Assembly: GCA_031296115.1 (NCBI GenBank)
Contig: JARLGI010000011.1
Location: forward strand, 62,001 to 126,000
Source: Acidobacteriota bacterium
GTDB lineage: Bacteria > Acidobacteriota > Terriglobia > Terriglobales > Acidobacteriaceae
Length of the DNA: 64,000 bases
Direction: 5' to 3'
In this document: one piece after another, positions 29,260 to 40,471 of the stretch
Numbering within the stretch: position 1 is the stretch's first letter
Layout of the letters: every line of letters starts with the position of its first letter
Notes under the pieces: generated by a model
What the model was told of the DNA's origin: nothing
Databases searched by the model: none
Seen by the model: the letters and a program-made list of their open reading frames with translations, nothing else
Program-made: the position numbers and the translations under genes

Positions 29260-30780
29260 CTATCGGTCGTAGGTTTCGGACAGATGTTTCAGCCTGGTAC
29301 TGATGTCGGGCGTCAAGGCTTCGGCACGGAAGCGCCAGCGCCAGTTGCCCGACGAACTGCCCGGCAGGTTCATGCGGCCTTCGCCACCGACTCCGAGGAC
29401 GTCCTGCATTGGGTAGAGTACGGTATCGGCGACCGATGCCATCACGGTGCGAATCAGGTCCCAGTTGATTTCTGCGCCGTCGGTGTTGAGATAGCGACGC
29501 GCGAATGTCATTTCTTTTTCAACGTCGGCGAGCGTTCTGGTGCTGCCGGTTCCTGGTCTGCTTTTCCACCAGCCGACCACGGTGTCGTTGTCATGGGTTC
29601 CGGTGTAAGCCACGAGGCGGCGGACGTAATTGTGCGGCTTGAAGTCCGGCGCTTGCGGATCGTTGCCGAAGGCGAATTGCAGAATCGCCATTCCGGGGAA
29701 GCCGAAGCGTTCGCGCAGGCCTTCCACTTCCGGAGTGATGACGCCGAGGTTTTCCGCCACGATCGGCAGCTTGCCCAGCGCAGTCTCCATCGCTTCGAAC
29801 AGCGGAACGCCCGGGCCCTTCACCCACTTGCCATTGCCTGCGGTAGTATCTCCGCCCGGGATTTCGTAGTAGGCCTCGAATCCGCGGAAGTGGTCAAGGC
29901 GAATCATGTCGAGCATCTGCAGCGCGCGGCGGAGACGGGCGATCCACCAGGTGTAGCCGGTTTTCGCGTGCTCCTCCCAGCAGTAAATCGGATTGCCCCA
30001 GAGCTGTCCGGTGGTGCTGAAGTAGTCCGGAGGAACACCCGCCACGACCTTCGGCTTTCCATCGTCACCGAGTTCGAACAGTCCGGGATTGGCCCACACG
30101 TCGGCACTGTCGAGGGCGACGTAAATCGGCACGTCGCCCATGATGCGGATGCCATTTTGTGCGCAGTGGGCCTTTAGATCACGCCACTGGCGTTCGAACT
30201 CGAACTGGATGAACTTGGTGCACTCGATTTCGTCGCGTAGTTCGCGATGCGCCCCCTCCAGTGCTGCCGGCGACCGCAGTGCAAGCTCGCGGGGCCACAG
30301 CGTCCACATCGCATTGTTGTGCACCTGCTTCAACGCCATGAACAGCGCGAATTCGTCCAGCCACGCCGAGTGCTTGAGGCAAAATTCGTCGAACTCTGCT
30401 TTCTCGGCAGCGGCATTTTGCTGGAAAGCCCGAAACGCGGTGCGTAGCAGTGGGAGCTTCCAGGTGATTACCGCTCCGAAATCAACAGTGTCGACAGGGA
30501 GTATGGGCGTGTCGTTCAAGTCGCGAGCGTTGAGATATCCCCGTCCCGCCAGTGTCTCGAGGCTGATCAGCAGAGGATTACCGGCAAAAGCCGAGAAGCA
30601 CTGGTAGGGCGAGTCGCCGTAGCCCGTTGGGCCCAGCGGCAGAACCTGCCAGATGCGCTGGCCGGAGTCGCGCAGGAAGTCAGCAAAACCGTGGGCCTCG
30701 GCGCCAATTTCACCGATACCGTAGGCGCCGGGGAGGGAACTGGGATGTAAGAGAATGCCGCTCGATCGTGGAAAGCTCAT
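29260..30780 (-). CDS. malQ: 4-alpha-glucanotransferase (amylomaltase), GH77
   Basis: About 506 residues from the ATG at 30780 (MSFPRSSGILLHPSSLPGAY); a TTG three codons upstream is also open. Conserved motifs: SPYQCFSAFAGNP, the nucleophile Asp in MIRLDHFRGFEAYYEIP, the acid/base Glu in PIVAENLGVI and the third acid in TGTHDNDTVVGWW. No signal peptide, so it acts in the cytoplasm on malto-oligosaccharides, transferring glucan chains and freeing glucose. It follows the sugar transporter gene by about 25 bases in the same direction, forming the intracellular half of the maltodextrin locus. Confidence 0.95.
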   Translation of the reverse strand: MSFPRSSGILLHPSSLPGAYGIGEIGAEAHGFADFLRDSGQRIWQVLPLGPTGYGDSPYQCFSAFAGNPLLISLETLAGRGYLNARDLNDTPILPVDTVDFGAVITWKLPLLRTAFRAFQQNAAAEKAEFDEFCLKHSAWLDEFALFMALKQVHNNAMWTLWPRELALRSPAALEGAHRELRDEIECTKFIQFEFERQWRDLKAHCAQNGIRIMGDVPIYVALDSADVWANPGLFELGDDGKPKVVAGVPPDYFSTTGQLWGNPIYCWEEHAKTGYTWWIARLRRALQMLDMIRLDHFRGFEAYYEIPGGDTTAGNGKWVKGPGVPLFEAMETALGKLPIVAENLGVITPEVEGLRERFGFPGMAILQFAFGNDPQAPDFKPHNYVRRLVAYTGTHDNDTVVGWWKSRPGTGSTRTLADVEKEMTFARRYLNTDGAEINWDLIRTVMASVADTVLYPMQDVLGVGGEGRMNLPGSSSGNWRWRFRAEALTPDISTRLKHLSETYDR

Positions 30781-30804
30781 GCTGGCCAATGACCTGTTGC
30801 GATC

Positions 30805-32151
30805 TTATATTGCGACCTCGCTCTGGCGCATTACGGTGGATTCCACGCGCTCTGCTCCCGGATCGACCACGCGCTGCATCATAACGGCAGCGAGAGCCAT
30901 GAAGACGCCTCCGGCGATTACGGCGGCGAGACGATTGTTATGCAGCACGTGATTCATCACCCATCCGAAGCCCAGGGAGGCAACAATCTCCGGCAACACA
31001 ATGAAGAAATTGAAGATGCCCATGTAAACGCCCGTCCGGTTTTCCGGAAGGGAACCGGCCAGCACACAATAGGGCATCGAAAGCGTGCTCGCCCACGCGA
31101 TGCCGACCCCGACCATGGAAAGCAAAAGCAGATTCTTGTTGTGTATCAGCGCTACCGACACCAGCCCGAGTGCGCCGCAGAGCAGACAGATACTGTGCGC
31201 ATTCTTACGCCTCACGGCGTCTGCCAGCTTAGGCAGCGCGAAGGAAAACACGAAGCAGACGGCCGAGTACATTCCGAAGCAGACTCCTGCCCATTCAACG
31301 CCGCGGGTATACACCGGCGAATTCTGATCTGCGGCTGCGAAGACGTTGCGGGCGACCGCGACCGGGAAGTAGAGCCACATGCAGAACAGTCCAAGCCAGG
31401 TGAGCAGTTGTACCGGCGCCAGTTGGCGCATGGTTAGCGGCATTTCGCGAATGGCAGTGAGAATTTCCTGGGCGTGGCTAGCGATGCCGCGCCGTTCGGC
31501 CTTGTGGCGCTGGAAGCCTTCGAGATCTTCCGGCGGATACTCTTTGGTGGAGACAATCGTCCACAAGACTGCACCGAAGAACGCTGCCGCCCCGACATAA
31601 AACGACAGCCGCACTGTCAGGGGAATGGAGTGCCGGGTTGTTTCAGCCGCGAGATGAAATACGTTGGTAAGCAGCCACGGCATCGCTGACGCCACCACCG
31701 CGCCCAGTCCGATGAACAGGCTCTGCATCGCGAACCCGCGGGTGCGCTGCTCTTCCGGCAGCAGGTCAGCGACGAACGCGCGGAAGGGCTCCATGCTGAT
31801 GTTGATGGAGCTGTCCAATATCCAGAGCAGCCCGGCAGCCATCCACAGCGCGGAACAGCGAGGCATTAGGATGAGCGCGACTGAGCTGAGGATTGCTCCC
31901 ACCAGGAAGTAAGGACGGCGGCGTCCCAGGCGCGTCCATGTGTGATCGCTGGCGTGGCCAATGATTGGCTGCACGATCAGTCCGGTCAGGGGAGCCGCCA
32001 GCCAGAGAATCGGGATCTGGTCGGCGCGAGCGCCCAGGTACTCGTAGATGGCGCTCATGTTGGCCATCTGGAGCCCCCAGCCAAACTGAATGCCCAGAAA
32101 GCCGAAGCTCATGTTCCAGATTTGCCAGAAGCTCTTGCGCGGCTTTTGCAT
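30805..32151 (-). CDS. MFS sugar transporter, SLC45/GPH-like
   Basis: A 448-residue permease with twelve predicted helices. Typical SLC45/GPH signatures: SFGFLGIQFGWGLQMANMS at the start, IIGHASDHTWTRLGRRRPYF in the first cytoplasmic loop, and SSINISMEPFRAFVADLLPEEQRT. Relatives carry maltose, maltodextrins or sucrose with protons or sodium. Coupling to malQ and the divergent TonB receptor and GH13 enzyme supports maltose or maltodextrin as substrate. It is divergent from the TonB receptor across a 505-base control region. Confidence 0.9.
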   Translation of the reverse strand: MQKPRKSFWQIWNMSFGFLGIQFGWGLQMANMSAIYEYLGARADQIPILWLAAPLTGLIVQPIIGHASDHTWTRLGRRRPYFLVGAILSSVALILMPRCSALWMAAGLLWILDSSINISMEPFRAFVADLLPEEQRTRGFAMQSLFIGLGAVVASAMPWLLTNVFHLAAETTRHSIPLTVRLSFYVGAAAFFGAVLWTIVSTKEYPPEDLEGFQRHKAERRGIASHAQEILTAIREMPLTMRQLAPVQLLTWLGLFCMWLYFPVAVARNVFAAADQNSPVYTRGVEWAGVCFGMYSAVCFVFSFALPKLADAVRRKNAHSICLLCGALGLVSVALIHNKNLLLLSMVGVGIAWASTLSMPYCVLAGSLPENRTGVYMGIFNFFIVLPEIVASLGFGWVMNHVLHNNRLAAVIAGGVFMALAAVMMQRVVDPGAERVESTVMRQSEVAI

Positions 32152-32280
32152 GCTGTTTCCCGTCTCGCGGAAGTGGCGCGCGTCAATATTTGCCGATCCT
32201 CGGTTTGCGGACGAAGGCGAAGCGTAAGTTCAACCAGCCACTCTTGTCAATGACGAGGGTGTGCTACATCACTTTGAACC

Positions 32281-32294
32281 GTGAGAAAAATCAC
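32281..32294. promoter_or_regulatory. CRP-like GTGA-N6-TCAC site
   Basis: Symmetric half-sites GTGA and TCAC with a six-base A-rich spacer, about 136 bases upstream of the sugar transporter ATG. The outer bases are C and T rather than T and A, so it is weaker than the sites at 23366 and 39641. An eight-base pattern like this is expected about once by chance in 64 kb, so position is the main support. Confidence 0.35.
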
Positions 32295-32359
32295 TGCGCC
32301 CAGCGGCATTATGGGAAACAATACCCGTAACCAAAAAAGGTCGTCCCAACTTTAATGTT

Positions 32360-32401
32360 GTTAAAAGGTAGTAAACTTTGCGTTAAAAGGTAGTAAACTT
32401 T
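32360..32401. repeat. Tandem 22-base direct repeat, candidate operator
   Basis: GTTAAAAGGTAGTAAACTTT occurs twice, starting at 32360 and 32382. The twenty bases are identical and only the two-base spacer differs (GC, then CT). The 22-base period places both copies on the same helix face. It is midway between two divergent sugar-utilisation units, which suggests a regulator binding site. No regulator gene is adjacent. Confidence 0.6.
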
Positions 32402-32656
32402 CTGCTGCTTTCAGTACGTTAGCGCAAGAGCCTCGATTGATCTCCGAGCGTCCGGCAAGGGATCAGAGTTTCCGGAGGCTTAAACGAAGCAAGGCACTTC
32501 GGGCGTTCGGGCGAAGGAAAGCTATGACTAGCGGTCGCGAGCAGTTGCGGTGGCAGCCGTTCTTCCTCCTTGTATTTGATTGCGTTTCTCTCCCCGATAA
32601 AGCGAAACAACAAAAAACAGAAAAACAAAACAATGAAAAACACGATGGAGGCGTAT

Positions 32657-35600
32657 ATGAAGTGCTCTAGCCTGTTCCGTGGGTTGGCGTTGCTATGTGT
32701 CGTGGGCGTGGCAATTTTCTCTTTCGCTCAATCCGAAGCCGGCCGCATTGCGGGAACTGTTACTGACACCTCCGGGGCTGTAGTTTCCGGGGCTACAGTT
32801 TCCGTTACAAATTTGGGTACGGACCGCGTGGTGACGGTCACAACCGGAGGCGCGGGAGAATTCTCCATTCCGACACTGCCGCCGGCGAATTACATGGTCC
32901 AGGTCAAGGCGCCGAATTTCAAGACCGTGACGCAGGACGTCACCCTGCAAGTCGGCCAGGTCCTTCCGCTGAACTTCTCTCTCACTGCCGGCGCGGTGAC
33001 TGAGAACGTGGAAGTCACTTCTGCGGCTCCGTTGGTTTCATCCGACAGTTCAGACCTGGGCACGGTAATCCAGGGGAAACAGATTGTCGATCTGATGCTG
33101 GACGGCCGCAACTTCACGCAGCTCGCTCTCTTGACTCCGGGCGTTACCCGCGGCTCCAACAACACTGGCGATGCGAACGGCACCTCCGGCAACGCCGAAA
33201 CCTACCGCTATAACACCAGCGGCGGGGCGGCGCTATCGGTGAATGGGCTCCGTCCTCAGGCCAACAATTTCCTGCTCGACGGATTCGACAACAACGAATC
33301 GCTGGTCAACACCATCATCTTCTTCTCGGCCCCGGACGCGATCCAGGAATTCCGGGTTGCGACCAACGTCGCGCCGGCTGAATTTGGCCGCGCCGGTGGT
33401 GGGGTAATCAACACCGCGATCAAGTCCGGCACCAATCAGATCCACGGGGTCCTATGGGAATTCCTGCGCAACAGCGCGCTCGACGCGACTCCCTGGACGC
33501 CTCAACAAAACGCCAAAAAGTTTCCCTTCAAGCAGAACCAGTTCGGAGCCGCCGCCGGCGGTCCGATCATCAAGAACAAGCTCTTCGTCTTTGGTGATTA
33601 TCAGGGCTTCCGGGCCTCTGCTCCCGCCAGCACCGACTACGCTACGGTTCCTACCGATCTGATGCGCAGCAGCGGCTATACCAACTTCTCTGAGCTTCTG
33701 TCCGAAGGCATTCAGATCAAGAACCCCCTCACCGGTCTGCCGTTCCCCGGGAACATCATCACCATTCCACTCAACCCGGCAGCGGTGAATTACCTGAATG
33801 CGTATCCCGTGCCGAACTGCAACAATTCAACCAACTCGAGCTGCCATTCCTTGACCCAGAACTACACCACGACGCGGCAGCGAATTCAGACCATCAACGA
33901 CTTCGATGTCCGGGCTGATTGGAACATTGGCGCCAAGGACACTGCTTTCTTCCGCTACAGTTACGGCAACGATAACCTGACCACCACCTCTCGCCTGCCC
34001 GACCTGCCCGCCGGATTTGGATCGGGCACCAATCCAACTAAGCCCTGGTCGGCGGTGGGGGAGGAAACCCATCTCTTCACCCCAAACCTAATTAACGAGT
34101 TCCGGTTCGGGTTCATTCGCACGACCTTCGGCTATCAGCCTCCGTTCGGCAATGTTCCCCTCTCCGCGAACCTCGGCATCGTCAATGCCAACGTGAACGG
34201 CCTCGGGCAGCCTGATCCGGCGCTTGGCGGCGGCGCGCTGATCGGTGGCTACAACAATCAACTGGAGTACACGGGTGACTATGGACCGTACGTGGTGCCG
34301 CAAGACACCTGGCAGGAGGCCGACAACCTGTCGTGGGTGAAGGGCAAACACACCATGAAGTTCGGCGCCAACATCCTGCGCCGGCAGGTGGACTTCTTCC
34401 GGCCGTTGACCGGCAAAGGCTACTTCTTTTTGTTCGGGAACGGGCAGACGCCCAGCATCACCGGCTACGAAGTGACGGACCTGCTGATCGGTTTCACCAA
34501 CCAGTACCAGATCGGTCCGGTGCTCGGCAATTCGCAAACCCGCAATTGGGAAACTGGCTTTTACGGGCAGGATGACTGGAAGGTAACCCGCAGGTTGACC
34601 TTGAACCTGGGTCTTCGCTGGGACCTGATTACTTGGCCAGTGGAGAAGAACAACAATCAGTCGAACTTTGACATTTACACCGGACAGATTCTGCTCGCCG
34701 GACAGGACGGCAACTCACGCAGTTTCATCCCCGTCTCGTATCACAACTTCGCCCCGCGCATCGGCTTCGCTTTCGATCCAACCGGCAGCGGTCAGAGCAA
34801 GTTCAGCGGCGGCTACGGGATCTTCTACTTCGTGGACCGGGGCGGCATCAGCAACCAGCTGGCTCAGAACCCGCCTTTCAGCGGTCAGGAGAGCTTCAAC
34901 TACGTCAACGGATACCGCATCACGTTTACCGGGCAGGCGCCGCTGGGTACCTACGACCCAAACACCGGTCAGTGCCTGACCAGTTGTAATCCGGTGGGAG
35001 CAGTGACGCCACTACCCTTAAAGGGCCCGATCATGGTGAATCTGAACAACCCCGTGAATGTCGCCATCTCAGTTGCCACTCTGCCGTCCAACAAGACCCC
35101 GAGCGTGCAGGAGTGGAACTTCCAGTACGAGCGGCAACTGGGCAGCAACGTGAGCATGAGCCTGGCTTACGTCGGTACCAAGGGTACGCACCTGGTGACC
35201 TACTACAACTACAACCGCCAGTACTACAACTCACCGCAGAACACGGTCAACTTCCCGCAGTTAAGCGCTATCAACACCCAGGCCACCATCGGCAACTCCA
35301 GCTACAACGCGCTGCAAGCGACACTGAATCGCCGCTTCACCAATGGCTTGCAGTTCGGGGCCTCGTATACCTGGTCGCACGCCATCGACGATTCGCCGGG
35401 CGCTTTCGACAACCCCACGGGATCGTCGGTGGATTACCGCGACCTGAAGGCGGAAAGGTCCAACTCGGACCTCGACATGCGTCAGCGCTTCGTGATGAGC
35501 GGCATCTATGACCTGCCGTTTGGCCGTGGCCGCAAATGGGGGAGCGACTGGAATGGCTTTACCAACTCAGTGCTCGGCGGGTGGCAGACCAACCTGATCT

Positions 35601-36019
35601 TTACCGCGGCGAGCGGCACGCCATTCGACCTCTCCTACACCGGAGGTAACCCGACCGTTCGTCCGAACCTGGTCGGAGACCCCATGGCTGGTATCACCAC
35701 GCCCTACGAGTACTTCAACCCCGCTGCTTTCGCCCCGGTTCCAATGAACGCCGCTGGTGTCATTTTGCAGGCGGGAACCACTCCCCGCAACTTCCTGGTT
35801 GGACCTGGGACCATGGACATCGACTTTGCGACCTTCAAGAACTTCAACATCACCGAGAGGTATGTGCTTCAGTTCCGTGCGGAGTTCTTTAACATCACCA
35901 ACACGCCGCAGTTCGCTAGCCCGGACGCCAGCTTGACGGATGGCAACTTCGGCAAAATCACCACGGGTCGTCTCGCTAGTGAGCGGCAGATTCAGTTCGC
36001 TCTGAAGTTCAGCTTCTAA
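32657..36019 (+). CDS. Oar-like TonB-dependent receptor with carboxypeptidase-regulatory domain
   Basis: 1120 residues from ATG 32657, chosen for the GGAGG five bases upstream and the signal peptide directly after (LFRGLALLCVVGVAIFSFAQ). The frame is open further upstream, with ATGs at 32633 and 32645. Then a carboxypeptidase-regulatory-like beta domain (GRIAGTVTDTSGAVVSGATV, about 28-110), a plug (about 120-240, VNGLRPQANNFLLDGFDNNE) and a long beta barrel ending in the aromatic IQFALKFSF. Such Oar-like receptors are expanded in Acidobacteriota. Its neighbours point to maltodextrin import across the outer membrane. No SusD-like lipoprotein accompanies it. A strong terminator separates it from the GH13 gene. 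Confidence 0.92.
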   Translation: MKCSSLFRGLALLCVVGVAIFSFAQSEAGRIAGTVTDTSGAVVSGATVSVTNLGTDRVVTVTTGGAGEFSIPTLPPANYMVQVKAPNFKTVTQDVTLQVGQVLPLNFSLTAGAVTENVEVTSAAPLVSSDSSDLGTVIQGKQIVDLMLDGRNFTQLALLTPGVTRGSNNTGDANGTSGNAETYRYNTSGGAALSVNGLRPQANNFLLDGFDNNESLVNTIIFFSAPDAIQEFRVATNVAPAEFGRAGGGVINTAIKSGTNQIHGVLWEFLRNSALDATPWTPQQNAKKFPFKQNQFGAAAGGPIIKNKLFVFGDYQGFRASAPASTDYATVPTDLMRSSGYTNFSELLSEGIQIKNPLTGLPFPGNIITIPLNPAAVNYLNAYPVPNCNNSTNSSCHSLTQNYTTTRQRIQTINDFDVRADWNIGAKDTAFFRYSYGNDNLTTTSRLPDLPAGFGSGTNPTKPWSAVGEETHLFTPNLINEFRFGFIRTTFGYQPPFGNVPLSANLGIVNANVNGLGQPDPALGGGALIGGYNNQLEYTGDYGPYVVPQDTWQEADNLSWVKGKHTMKFGANILRRQVDFFRPLTGKGYFFLFGNGQTPSITGYEVTDLLIGFTNQYQIGPVLGNSQTRNWETGFYGQDDWKVTRRLTLNLGLRWDLITWPVEKNNNQSNFDIYTGQILLAGQDGNSRSFIPVSYHNFAPRIGFAFDPTGSGQSKFSGGYGIFYFVDRGGISNQLAQNPPFSGQESFNYVNGYRITFTGQAPLGTYDPNTGQCLTSCNPVGAVTPLPLKGPIMVNLNNPVNVAISVATLPSNKTPSVQEWNFQYERQLGSNVSMSLAYVGTKGTHLVTYYNYNRQYYNSPQNTVNFPQLSAINTQATIGNSSYNALQATLNRRFTNGLQFGASYTWSHAIDDSPGAFDNPTGSSVDYRDLKAERSNSDLDMRQRFVMSGIYDLPFGRGRKWGSDWNGFTNSVLGGWQTNLIFTAASGTPFDLSYTGGNPTVRPNLVGDPMAGITTPYEYFNPAAFAPVPMNAAGVILQAGTTPRNFLVGPGTMDIDFATFKNFNITERYVLQFRAEFFNITNTPQFASPDASLTDGNFGKITTGRLASERQIQFALKFSF

Positions 36020-36080: not shown

Positions 36081-37955
36081 ATGAATAACAAGAACTCCAT
36101 CGCTGCGGCGCGAATCTCCTCCTCTTTCCTGGTTTTCATTCTGCTTCTTTCCTTCACCTCAGTTGCGCAGCCCGGTGGCGCGCCTAAGATCTCCAAAGTC
36201 GAACCACCTAACTGGTGGGCCGGGTACGTGCCCGTGGTCATGGTATTGCTCTACGGCGAGAACCTGGCCGGAGCCGATGTCTCGGTCGATTACGCCGGCG
36301 CATCAGTCGCCAAGGTTCAAACTGAACGTGACGGCAAGCATGCGTTTGTCTGGCTGAATTTCGATCCCACTGCGGAACCCGGGGACGTCCCCATTCGCCT
36401 GAAGACAGCTTCCGGTGAGACCCGCGTGACTTTGCCGTTGCTGAAGCGCGCATCCGAGGAGGGAAAATTCCAGGGCATCACTCCCAACGACGTGATCTAC
36501 CTGATCATGCCTGACCGCTTCGCCGACGGCGATCCCAGCAATAATCAGCCCAAGGATGCCGCGCCCGGGACTTATGATCGCTCCAGACCGAAGACTTACC
36601 ACGGCGGGGATCTGAGGGGCGTCAGTGAGCACTTGCCGTATCTGAAGGACTTGGGAGTGACGGCGCTGTGGATCACGCCGCTGTACGACAACGACAATTC
36701 CACCTCCGATTATCACGGCTATGGCGCGGTCGACGAATACTCGGTGGAAGACCACTTCGGCACCATGCGGGATTTTCAGCAGCTTGTTGCTGCCGCCCAC
36801 CAACTTGGCCTGAAGGTCTTGCTGGACATGGTCCCGAACCACGTTGGACCGAAGCATCCCTGGGCCACCTCGCAGCCGTCTCCGAACTGGCTGCACGGCA
36901 CGACTGAGCACCACCTCGACACCGATTATTTCTACCCCCCCATCACCGATCCTCACGCGGTGAAGGCGAATTACGTCAGCGCGCTGGAGGGATGGTTCGC
37001 CAACGCTCTGCCCGACCTGGCGCAGGAGAATCCGCTGGTAGCGCAATATCTTTTGGAGAACGCCTACTGGTGGACAGAAAGCAGTGGACTCGACGGATTC
37101 CGCATCGACACGTTCCCCTATGTTCCGCGCGCCTTCTGGGCCTATTACCACCAGGGATTGTTCTCCACCTATCCCCATTTCTTTACCGTAGGCGAGATTT
37201 ACGACTTCAATCCGACAGTGACGTCGTATTGGGCCGGTGGCCAGACCGGCTTCGACGGCATTGATACTCGCCTGACGACCCCGTTTGACTTCCCGATGAA
37301 CTCCGCCATCCGCGAAGTCGTGGCTCACGGAGTTTCCGCCAAGAGAATCGTTGAAGTTCTTCGCCAGGACCGGCTCTATCCGCATCCTGAGCTTCTGGTC
37401 ACCTTCATCGGCAATCACGACATGAAGCGATTTCTCACCGATGCGAATGGCTCGCGAGAGAAGCTGAAACTGGCGTTTTCCTTGCTGGCGACGCTGCGCG
37501 GGATTCCGCAGCTTTATTACGGGGACGAAATCGGCATGGGCGGCGGCGACGATCCCGATAACCGCCAAGACTTTCCGGGGGGATTCCCCGGGGACCAGCA
37601 CGACGCTTTCACCCGGGCAGGGCGCACGCCGGATGAGCAGGACGTTTACTCCCATGTGCAGACGCTGATGAAGCTCCGGGCGGAACATCCGGCGCTGCGC
37701 ATCGGGGTGCAGAAACATGTGGCAGTGGCTGACAAGTACTACGCATTCACGCGCGAGACGGAAAGTGAACGGCTATTGATCGTGTTTCACAATGGCGATG
37801 CGCCGGAGAGCGTCACCCTCGACCTCGCCAACACTTCTATCGCCGATGCCAAAAGCCTGACGCCGATCTTTGGTGGCAGTGCGGCACAGCTCAATGGCGG
37901 GCAGGTGCAGACGCAGCTTCCGCCGAACAGCCTGGTCATCTTCCGGGAGCAATGA
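36081..37955 (+). CDS. Secreted GH13 cyclomaltodextrinase/neopullulanase-like enzyme
   Basis: A 624-residue protein with an N-terminal signal peptide (SSFLVFILLLSFTSVAQ). A cyclomaltodextrinase N-terminal Ig-like domain follows (about 33-115, KVEPPNWWAGYVPVVMVLLYG). The GH13 barrel (about 130-530) has DVIYLIMPDRFADGD, nucleophile Asp343 in GFRIDTFPYV, acid/base Glu372 in TVGEIYD and Asp447 in FIGNHDMKRF. A C-terminal beta domain resembles Cyc-maltodext_C. This is the architecture of SusA-type neopullulanases. It probably hydrolyses starch fragments or cyclodextrins in the periplasm, feeding the MFS transporter and MalQ. The start has no strong ribosome site. Confidence 0.92.
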   Translation: MNNKNSIAAARISSSFLVFILLLSFTSVAQPGGAPKISKVEPPNWWAGYVPVVMVLLYGENLAGADVSVDYAGASVAKVQTERDGKHAFVWLNFDPTAEPGDVPIRLKTASGETRVTLPLLKRASEEGKFQGITPNDVIYLIMPDRFADGDPSNNQPKDAAPGTYDRSRPKTYHGGDLRGVSEHLPYLKDLGVTALWITPLYDNDNSTSDYHGYGAVDEYSVEDHFGTMRDFQQLVAAAHQLGLKVLLDMVPNHVGPKHPWATSQPSPNWLHGTTEHHLDTDYFYPPITDPHAVKANYVSALEGWFANALPDLAQENPLVAQYLLENAYWWTESSGLDGFRIDTFPYVPRAFWAYYHQGLFSTYPHFFTVGEIYDFNPTVTSYWAGGQTGFDGIDTRLTTPFDFPMNSAIREVVAHGVSAKRIVEVLRQDRLYPHPELLVTFIGNHDMKRFLTDANGSREKLKLAFSLLATLRGIPQLYYGDEIGMGGGDDPDNRQDFPGGFPGDQHDAFTRAGRTPDEQDVYSHVQTLMKLRAEHPALRIGVQKHVAVADKYYAFTRETESERLLIVFHNGDAPESVTLDLANTSIADAKSLTPIFGGSAAQLNGGQVQTQLPPNSLVIFREQ

Positions 37956-38708: not shown

Positions 38709-39404
38709 CTACTTCCCCAAAATGTTCTTTCCAAATGAAAACTTCGTTCCCACTACGACCCGCACGGTGTTACGACCGCCATCCAGTATGTTCGAGAAAT
38801 AATTAAAGTGAACAAGGTCGGTGGCTACACGGAGACCGAAGTTTGGGGTCATCTCATAGGTGATCCCACCTCCGAAGCCGTAGAACACCACCGTGTCAGA
38901 GCTGGATGTCTTCCCGTTCAGGAGGCCGCTGACAACCTGTGCGATGTATGGGTTGTCAGGCGTGGCCGTGAAAGTTCCGTGCAGTGCGCCGAGCGCCGGA
39001 CGCACGAAGAGGGTCACCTTTTTGAAGTGGCGGTAATTGAATTGCGGTCCCGCCTCATAGGTATAGGTTGAAGAGTTGTAAGGTACCGCCAATGGGATCC
39101 CCAACTCTTGGAATATCGGTAGATACGGCGCCAATTTCGCCTGTGTGGCCGCATTAAGCTTGCTCGGCAGCAGCGTGCTGTGGCCATTGCCGTAGCTGAA
39201 ATCGAAACCCAGCGTCAGCCAACTGTTCCAGTTGTAGCCAAAGTCGCCATCGAATCCGCGCTGCGTCAGATTCAACGACGGCGTGCTGAAGTAGGAAAAG
39301 GCGCCAAAAGTGGAGAACTGGCGGACATCGGTTTGTTGTGAGAAGCAGTTGAGGCCCGTTAGGAGCAGAAATGCCAAAAGGACGCAGAGCAATAAGCGCC
39401 GCAT
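38709..39404 (-). CDS. Outer-membrane beta-barrel protein
   Basis: A 231-residue protein behind an AAGGAG box. The signal peptide (LLLCVLLAFLLLTGLNCFSQ) is followed by alternating amphipathic strands: FDGDFGYNWNSWLTLGFDFSYG, YEAGPQFNYRHFKKVTLFVRPALG, VVFYGFGGGITYEMTPNFGLRVATDLV. The last strand is VRVVVGTKFSFG. This is the OmpA/OmpW-size barrel type seen in Acidobacteriota, probably with eight strands. Function unknown. Upstream (39405-39700) lie a perfect CRP-type palindrome and an ATTCCC/GGGAAT inverted repeat. Confidence 0.82.
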   Translation of the reverse strand: MRRLLLCVLLAFLLLTGLNCFSQQTDVRQFSTFGAFSYFSTPSLNLTQRGFDGDFGYNWNSWLTLGFDFSYGNGHSTLLPSKLNAATQAKLAPYLPIFQELGIPLAVPYNSSTYTYEAGPQFNYRHFKKVTLFVRPALGALHGTFTATPDNPYIAQVVSGLLNGKTSSSDTVVFYGFGGGITYEMTPNFGLRVATDLVHFNYFSNILDGGRNTVRVVVGTKFSFGKNILGK

Positions 39405-39640: not shown

Positions 39641-39656
39641 TGTGATGAAGTTCACA
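39641..39656. promoter_or_regulatory. Perfect CRP-type palindrome between barrel and lipase genes
   Basis: TGTGA-TGAAGT-TCACA matches the CRP consensus at all ten fixed bases. It lies about 240 bases upstream of the barrel-protein start and just past the 3' end of the lipase-like gene. The likely target is the barrel gene. Confidence 0.5.
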
Positions 39657-39700: not shown

Positions 39701-40471
39701 TTATTCGTCCGAATGTGCCTCGGCGAGACGGCGCGCGATGATGGTATACACCGATGCGTTGAACGCTAATCCGATGTGCGTACCGGGAACTTCGAAATCA
39801 GTGGCAGAGTTTCCCGTCACGCAGTAATGCCAGTCCACAACCCCATCATTGCGTGTGTAGATTGCGGTTTCCAGTACCGACTTCGGCATCTTGCGGCGAA
39901 GGGAATCGAGGAACCTGCAAGTACACATGCCGGTGTAGCAGGTCGGCAGCACGGCGGGTCCATGGTCCGCAAGAATTTGCCGGCGCACGACCTCGGCGGC
40001 ACGCAGTATCGTTCTGTGGGCCACGGTGCCTCGGAAAGGGGATCCGAGCATGATCACCGACGCGATGTCGTCAGGCCTCTGATTGGCCACGGAGCGGGCG
40101 ATGATCCCGCCAAGGCTGTGGCCAATGAGATGGATCTTGCGCTCGGTCTCCATCAAGGCCTTCTCGATGCTTTCATTCAAGCGCCGCCGGATGAGCAGGT
40201 TCGGACACTCCGCATTCAGTCCGATGCCGGAAACGTAAGCTCGGTATCCCAGGCGCACCAGCCAGGAACGCAACTGGGTGAGGTAGGCGTCCGTGCCGAG
40301 AAAGCCGGGAATGAGTACAACTCCGGATCCGTCGCCCCGTGGAACGCCCAGGCCGTAATAGACAGGGGAGGCATGTAGCAGAAGAAACTCGGCGCCAAAT
40401 AAGGCTTCCTTCCAGATTGCGATGTCTGCTACCGCAGTGTCGTGCTGAAAGCCATGATTCGGCGGGGCCAT
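39701..40471 (-). CDS. Alpha/beta hydrolase, lipase-like
   Basis: A 256-residue hydrolase. Motifs: PGFLGTDAYL (oxyanion region), the nucleophile elbow GHSLGG in KIHLIGHSLGGIIARSVA, and MLGSPFRGTVAH. The acid Asp is in NDGVVDWHYC and the final His in GTHIGLAFN. This matches the class-2/PGAP1-like esterase group acting on lipid or polyester substrates. No clear signal peptide. It lies just upstream, in the leftward direction, of the barrel gene, and 296 bases from the phasin gene. A role in polyhydroxyalkanoate or lipid turnover is possible but unproven. Confidence 0.83.
   Translation of the reverse strand: MAPPNHGFQHDTAVADIAIWKEALFGAEFLLLHASPVYYGLGVPRGDGSGVVLIPGFLGTDAYLTQLRSWLVRLGYRAYVSGIGLNAECPNLLIRRRLNESIEKALMETERKIHLIGHSLGGIIARSVANQRPDDIASVIMLGSPFRGTVAHRTILRAAEVVRRQILADHGPAVLPTCYTGMCTCRFLDSLRRKMPKSVLETAIYTRNDGVVDWHYCVTGNSATDFEVPGTHIGLAFNASVYTIIARRLAEAHSDE

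Follow-up and report, generated by a model that had tools for sequence, protein, structure and literature searches.

Acidobacteria are abundant, little-studied soil bacteria. In other phyla, maltodextrin genes are controlled by LacI-type maltose operators, the sites of which are palindromic, and Goss et al. are said to have described, in 2013, direct-repeat sites for ToxR. In Escherichia coli, ArcA sites consist of direct repeats 11 or 22 bp apart, with footprints of ~44 bp, according to the sections of the ArcA study used here (PMC3798270). Acidobacteriae are named, in the passages considered from another paper, among the groups that are richer in transmembrane transcription regulators (PMC10269533); maltodextrin loci are outside the scope of these passages, although the receptor-side regulators of the relatives discussed below seem alike in layout, with a membrane segment judged by eye. 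Among the top matches of literature searches on Acidobacteria combined with maltodextrin, starch, TonB or transmembrane regulators, no publication on the regulation considered here was found, as far as titles and the openings of abstracts tell.

We analyzed a stretch of 64,000 nucleotides (hereafter, the window; positions 62001-126000 of contig C35) from an acidobacterial genome of 3.75 Mb in 125 contigs (93.6% complete, 3.8% contamination), in which a tandem repeat lies between divergent sugar genes. The 22-base repeat is a feature of an already known type: like the multi-repeat ArcA sites, as these are presented in the sections mentioned (PMC3798270), it is direct and helically phased, its period of 22 bases providing at least two directly repeated half-sites at a distance of about one or two helical turns. 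Unlike those sites, which were established by ChIP and footprinting at many promoters, it is represented by a single locus. Unlike the LacI-type maltose operators, it is non-palindromic and belongs to a genome without a LacI helix-turn-helix (HTH). The likeness to ToxR would lie in the mode of action, with direct repeats bound by a transmembrane regulator of the winged-helix class, and the closest PDB match of the DNA-binding domain of one regulator in this assembly (on contig C1, see below) is ToxR; the window locus differs in that no ToxR-like gene adjoins it. We tentatively favor the interpretation of the repeat as a locus-specific direct-repeat cis-regulatory site, i.e. a candidate operator. 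If it is an operator, it offers a small, testable handle on the switching of starch-sugar genes without LacI-type regulators in Acidobacteria.

The tandem repeat and its control region

Six proteins of the window were analyzed with Pfam, and the remaining open reading frames (ORFs) were taken from the ORF listing. The genes for an MFS sugar transporter (30805-32151; MFS_1/MFS_2, with a weak GPH_sucrose match) and the 4-alpha-glucanotransferase MalQ (29260-30789; GH77) lie on the reverse strand, whereas those for an outer-membrane receptor (32657-36019; CarboxypepD_reg and OMP_b-brl_4, preceded by GGAGG at 32647-32651) and a cyclomaltodextrinase-type GH13 enzyme (36081-37955; Cyc-maltodext_N and Alpha-amylase) lie on the forward strand. 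The unstranded gap of 505 bases between them (32152-32656) is thus a control region common to two divergent maltodextrin operons, MFS-malQ and receptor-cyclomaltodextrinase, in agreement with the initial annotation.

Within this region, sequence inspection, a tandem-repeat scan and a genome search locate two identical 20-base copies of GTTAAAAGGTAGTAAACTTT on the forward strand, at 32360-32379 and 32382-32401, spaced by 22 bases, i.e. the two helical turns that had been noted before. The resulting 22-base array has the top score among the 25 TRF rows for the window (score 84, match 100%). Each copy contains AAAG...CTTT; an equally good inverted repeat appears in 72% of shuffles, so the earlier description of the repeat as not palindromic holds, and a palindromic operator at this site was rejected. 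A sub-period of 11 bases within the unit comes down to GT-AA, the sole bases common to both 11-base halves (p = 0.03, the choice of these bases being post hoc).

Two further elements surround the array. A diverged third copy, AAAAGGTCGTCCCAACTTT, which the initial annotation did not include, is found on the forward strand at 32335-32353, starting 28 bases upstream; 15 of its 17 aligned bases match, with a 2-base insertion in the middle (shuffle p = 0.0065, 0.005 and 0.0046, uncorrected for eight flank/strand tests), and it is also hinted at by repeat family D4 in the repeat listing of the window. In addition, according to a phasing score, A/T tracts recur with a period of 10.5 bases on no particular strand over 64 bases (32326-32389), reaching beyond the repeat itself.

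If the repeat is an operator, this AT-rich, helically phased element with two perfect copies and one diverged copy in the control region of the divergent maltodextrin operons would be occupied by a regulator that binds adjacent sites lying on the same side of the helix; once bound, this regulator would act as a switch for the receptor-cyclomaltodextrinase operon, perhaps together with MFS-malQ. The most plausible binder would be a winged-helix protein of the OmpR/PhoB or ToxR/CadC type encoded elsewhere in the genome. Binding at the repeat, the identity of the binder, and activation as opposed to repression are all points that we infer.

The A/T tracts can also be read as bent DNA or an UP-like element that aids RNA polymerase or a nucleoid protein and involves no specific regulator. 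The phasing is conspicuous enough to suggest this, ranking in the top 0.02% among the 64-base stretches of the window and being unequaled by any of 52 AT-matched stretches; however, the p value in mononucleotide shuffles is only 0.015, phasing does not predict the exact identity over 20 bases, the receptor gene starts ~256 bases downstream of the array, and the 505-base region yielded no sigma-70-type promoter. We consider this explanation improbable. A known RNA element was rejected as well, given that the single Rfam row for the region, the HOXB13 antisense lncRNA family, scores 21.6 bits against a cut-off of 40 bits.

The full CRP consensus is TGTGA-N6-TCACA. The CRP-like pattern GTGA-N6-TCAC that had been annotated 66 bases before the first copy is indeed present at that distance (GTGAGAAAAATCAC, 32281-32294, no strand), but as a CRP-like site it is weak and barely exceeds chance: there are only 8 fixed bases, the window contains 3 such patterns compared to 0.79 expected, and 4 of 100 shuffles reach 3. 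The outer T and A of the consensus are missing here. A CRP/FNR-type protein that binds at this pattern and mainly runs the control region, with the repeat being incidental, would draw on the presence of the pattern and on the 10 Crp-type HTH matches in the genome; in view of the near-chance frequency and the incomplete consensus, we give this possibility very little weight. Another GTGA-N6-TCAC, GTGATGAAGTTCAC, is located at 39642-39655, after the ORF at 38709-39404 and before that at 39701-40471.

Uniqueness and conservation of the repeat

A genome search for the 20-mer with up to 3 mismatches yielded 2 matches, both of them the copies of the array, and the 16-base core, again with up to 3 mismatches, had 7 matches in the genome compared to 13 for the reversed control. 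Thus, nothing points to a regulon, and a genome-wide regulon sharing the repeat was rejected. Elsewhere in the order, a search of 297 genomes for the 17-mer with at most 1 mismatch found nothing, and the 505-base region, compared with 396 genomes, gave a single 35-base match, which lies outside the repeat, and hence has no real counterpart there. No tandem repeat was detected in the only further region where receptor and MFS genes diverge (L163/L169), and none of the 8 same-genus genomes contains a true orthologue of the MFS transporter, with zero or one weak match in each. The repeat, then, neither recurs at other promoters nor is conserved in relatives. Of the two observations that the initial annotation listed as counting against its proposal, random scatter in the genome was not seen, whereas absence from the corresponding regions of relatives was, so that the expected conservation in orthologous regions did not hold.

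A neutral origin would be a tandem duplication of recent date, produced by slippage during the replication of non-coding DNA and devoid of function. Such a duplication accounts for copies that are perfectly identical, confined to a single locus in the genome and absent from the relatives searched, with no excess of related single sites elsewhere in the genome. Furthermore, similar arrays, taken as those with a period of 15-40, a score of at least 70 and a match of at least 90%, account for 6 rows (4 distinct units) in 967 kb of related loci, or about one per 160-240 kb, and for none in 116 kb of other DNA from the same genome, which indicates that such arrays appear occasionally and function is not required. 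However, the diverged third copy and the A/T phasing beyond the repeat suggest an older, structured sequence, and the array sits in the control region common to two operons. On balance, a neutral duplication is a substantial possibility and a close second to the operator reading.

Regulators and receptor loci in this and related genomes

The LacI, Crp and Trans_reg_C families were searched genome-wide. There were no matches to the LacI HTH in this 93.6% complete genome, which supports the earlier suggestion of a regulator of another class, as do the winged-helix regulators at related loci; a LacI operator was accordingly rejected, there being no LacI-family match in the genome and no palindrome. 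The genome encodes 12 Trans_reg_C domains. The genes on either side of the control region encode transport proteins and enzymes, and no regulator gene lies between or directly beside them, in line with the annotation that the regulator is not encoded nearby.

Strong matches to the MFS transporter were detected in 57, and to the receptor in 48, of the 397 genomes of the order (own genome included in both counts), and the highest-identity named relatives of the transporter include Acidobacteriota (Bryobacterales, Occallatibacter). From the best matches, we drew 60 loci (L127-L166 and L198-L217), 38 of which have a receptor at >300 bits. A divergent regulator gene adjoins the receptor gene directly upstream in 33 of them, 17 being ToxR/CadC-like, with a TolB-like propeller, and 16 of a second type. 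All three of the 17 ToxR/CadC-like regulators that were put through Pfam contain Trans_reg_C and PD40 repeats. The second type (~420 residues) shows a weak Trans_reg_C match (E = 0.021), and one such regulator analyzed alone had no Pfam match and no convincing PDB match, so that the designation 'winged-helix' is a weaker inference for this type. In contrast to the 33 loci, no winged-helix regulator is present between or directly beside the four sugar genes of the window, such that linkage appears to be usual but not obligatory. Neither does the genome contain an orthologue of the second-type regulator; a protein carrying a Malectin domain matches it at only 43%, within the DNA-binding part.

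A divergent regulator is missing from the remaining five loci (L129, L163, L200, L212 and L213), of which L163 (genome G064) has a back-to-back layout like that of the window locus. At another of these receptor loci (L192/L212, genome G040), an 11-base tandem repeat, CAGGCACATAT, is present in two copies ~320 bases upstream of the receptor.

In the same assembly, a second receptor-cyclomaltodextrinase pair is found beside a ToxR/CadC-like regulator on contig C1 (L243/L247, 7.4 kb). The PDB matches of this regulator comprise ToxR, CadC, OmpR-family domains and TolB, the best match of the DNA-binding domain being ToxR (E = 9 × 10−12), compared to 1.5 × 10−7 for CadC. The regulator is 87% identical to that of a genome from a different genus (G159), and a search of 8 same-genus genomes did not detect it, so that C1 may be transferred DNA or contamination of the bin. 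The tandem repeat of the window is absent from C1.

Upstream regions of the related receptor genes

Among the 15 upstream regions of loci with the second regulator type, 12 were aligned (L130, L131, L132, L133, L136, L137, L138, L141, L142, L146, L151 and L162), with L144, L149 and L165 omitted as too diverged. A block close to ATTTTACTCCAGTAACCGTTTAAAACCTAGTGAAACGT is common to all 12 and lies between the regulator and receptor genes. Across 16 such upstream regions, which are related and hence non-independent, AAC recurs at lags of 10, 11, 21 and 22 bases 19, 16, 12 and 10 times, respectively, compared to 1.8, 3.0, 2.6 and 1.9 in shuffles. This non-coding block with its AAC half-sites looks like a real operator family; it had no match here among known motifs. 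With half-sites every 10-11 bases in relatives, a direct-repeat operator becomes a natural expectation at this operon.

By eye, the repeat (TTAAAAGGTAGT-AAAC) resembles the block (TTAAAACCTAGTGAAAC), but the possibility that it is a copy of the block was rejected, having found no support in shuffles, in a comparison with AT-matched stretches or in a profile scan. On the forward strand, the alignment of the repeat with the block yielded shuffle p values of 0.05-0.4, and 7 of 40 AT-matched stretches aligned equally well; with the block profile, the repeat is the best place in the 505-base gap but is not notable window-wide. Kinship between the two, if any, is one of design only.

The tentative operator reading, thus, draws on the perfect, top-scoring array, the third copy and the 10.5-base A/T phasing, on the contrast between the missing LacI HTH and the 12 Trans_reg_C domains, on the regulators at 33 of 38 receptor loci, the ToxR match on C1 and the AAC lags of relatives, and on the ArcA precedent; it is opposed by the lack of a block match beyond chance, of further sites in the genome, of conservation, of an identified cognate regulator, and of a detected sigma-70-type promoter.

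A broader evolutionary scenario, which we regard as unlikely and put forward as speculation, is that maltodextrin receptors of these Acidobacteria are normally under a divergent winged-helix regulator that acts on phased direct repeats, one type of this regulator having a TolB-like propeller and probably residing in the membrane, and that this lineage lost the local regulator; its operons would then be arranged back to back, with a newly arisen direct-repeat operator under the control of an unlinked regulator, in other words, a rewiring of sugar control.

A by-product of the analysis is, perhaps, weightier than the repeat, namely, that receptor genes are consistently accompanied by a divergent regulator, ToxR/CadC-like or related, and that one group has a strongly conserved upstream block. 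In the other group, ToxR/CadC-like loci (L198, L199, L201-L211 and L215-L217) appear by eye to share other conserved upstream stretches, TTATCTGG... and GTGSATTGC, which possibly represent a second operator or promoter family.
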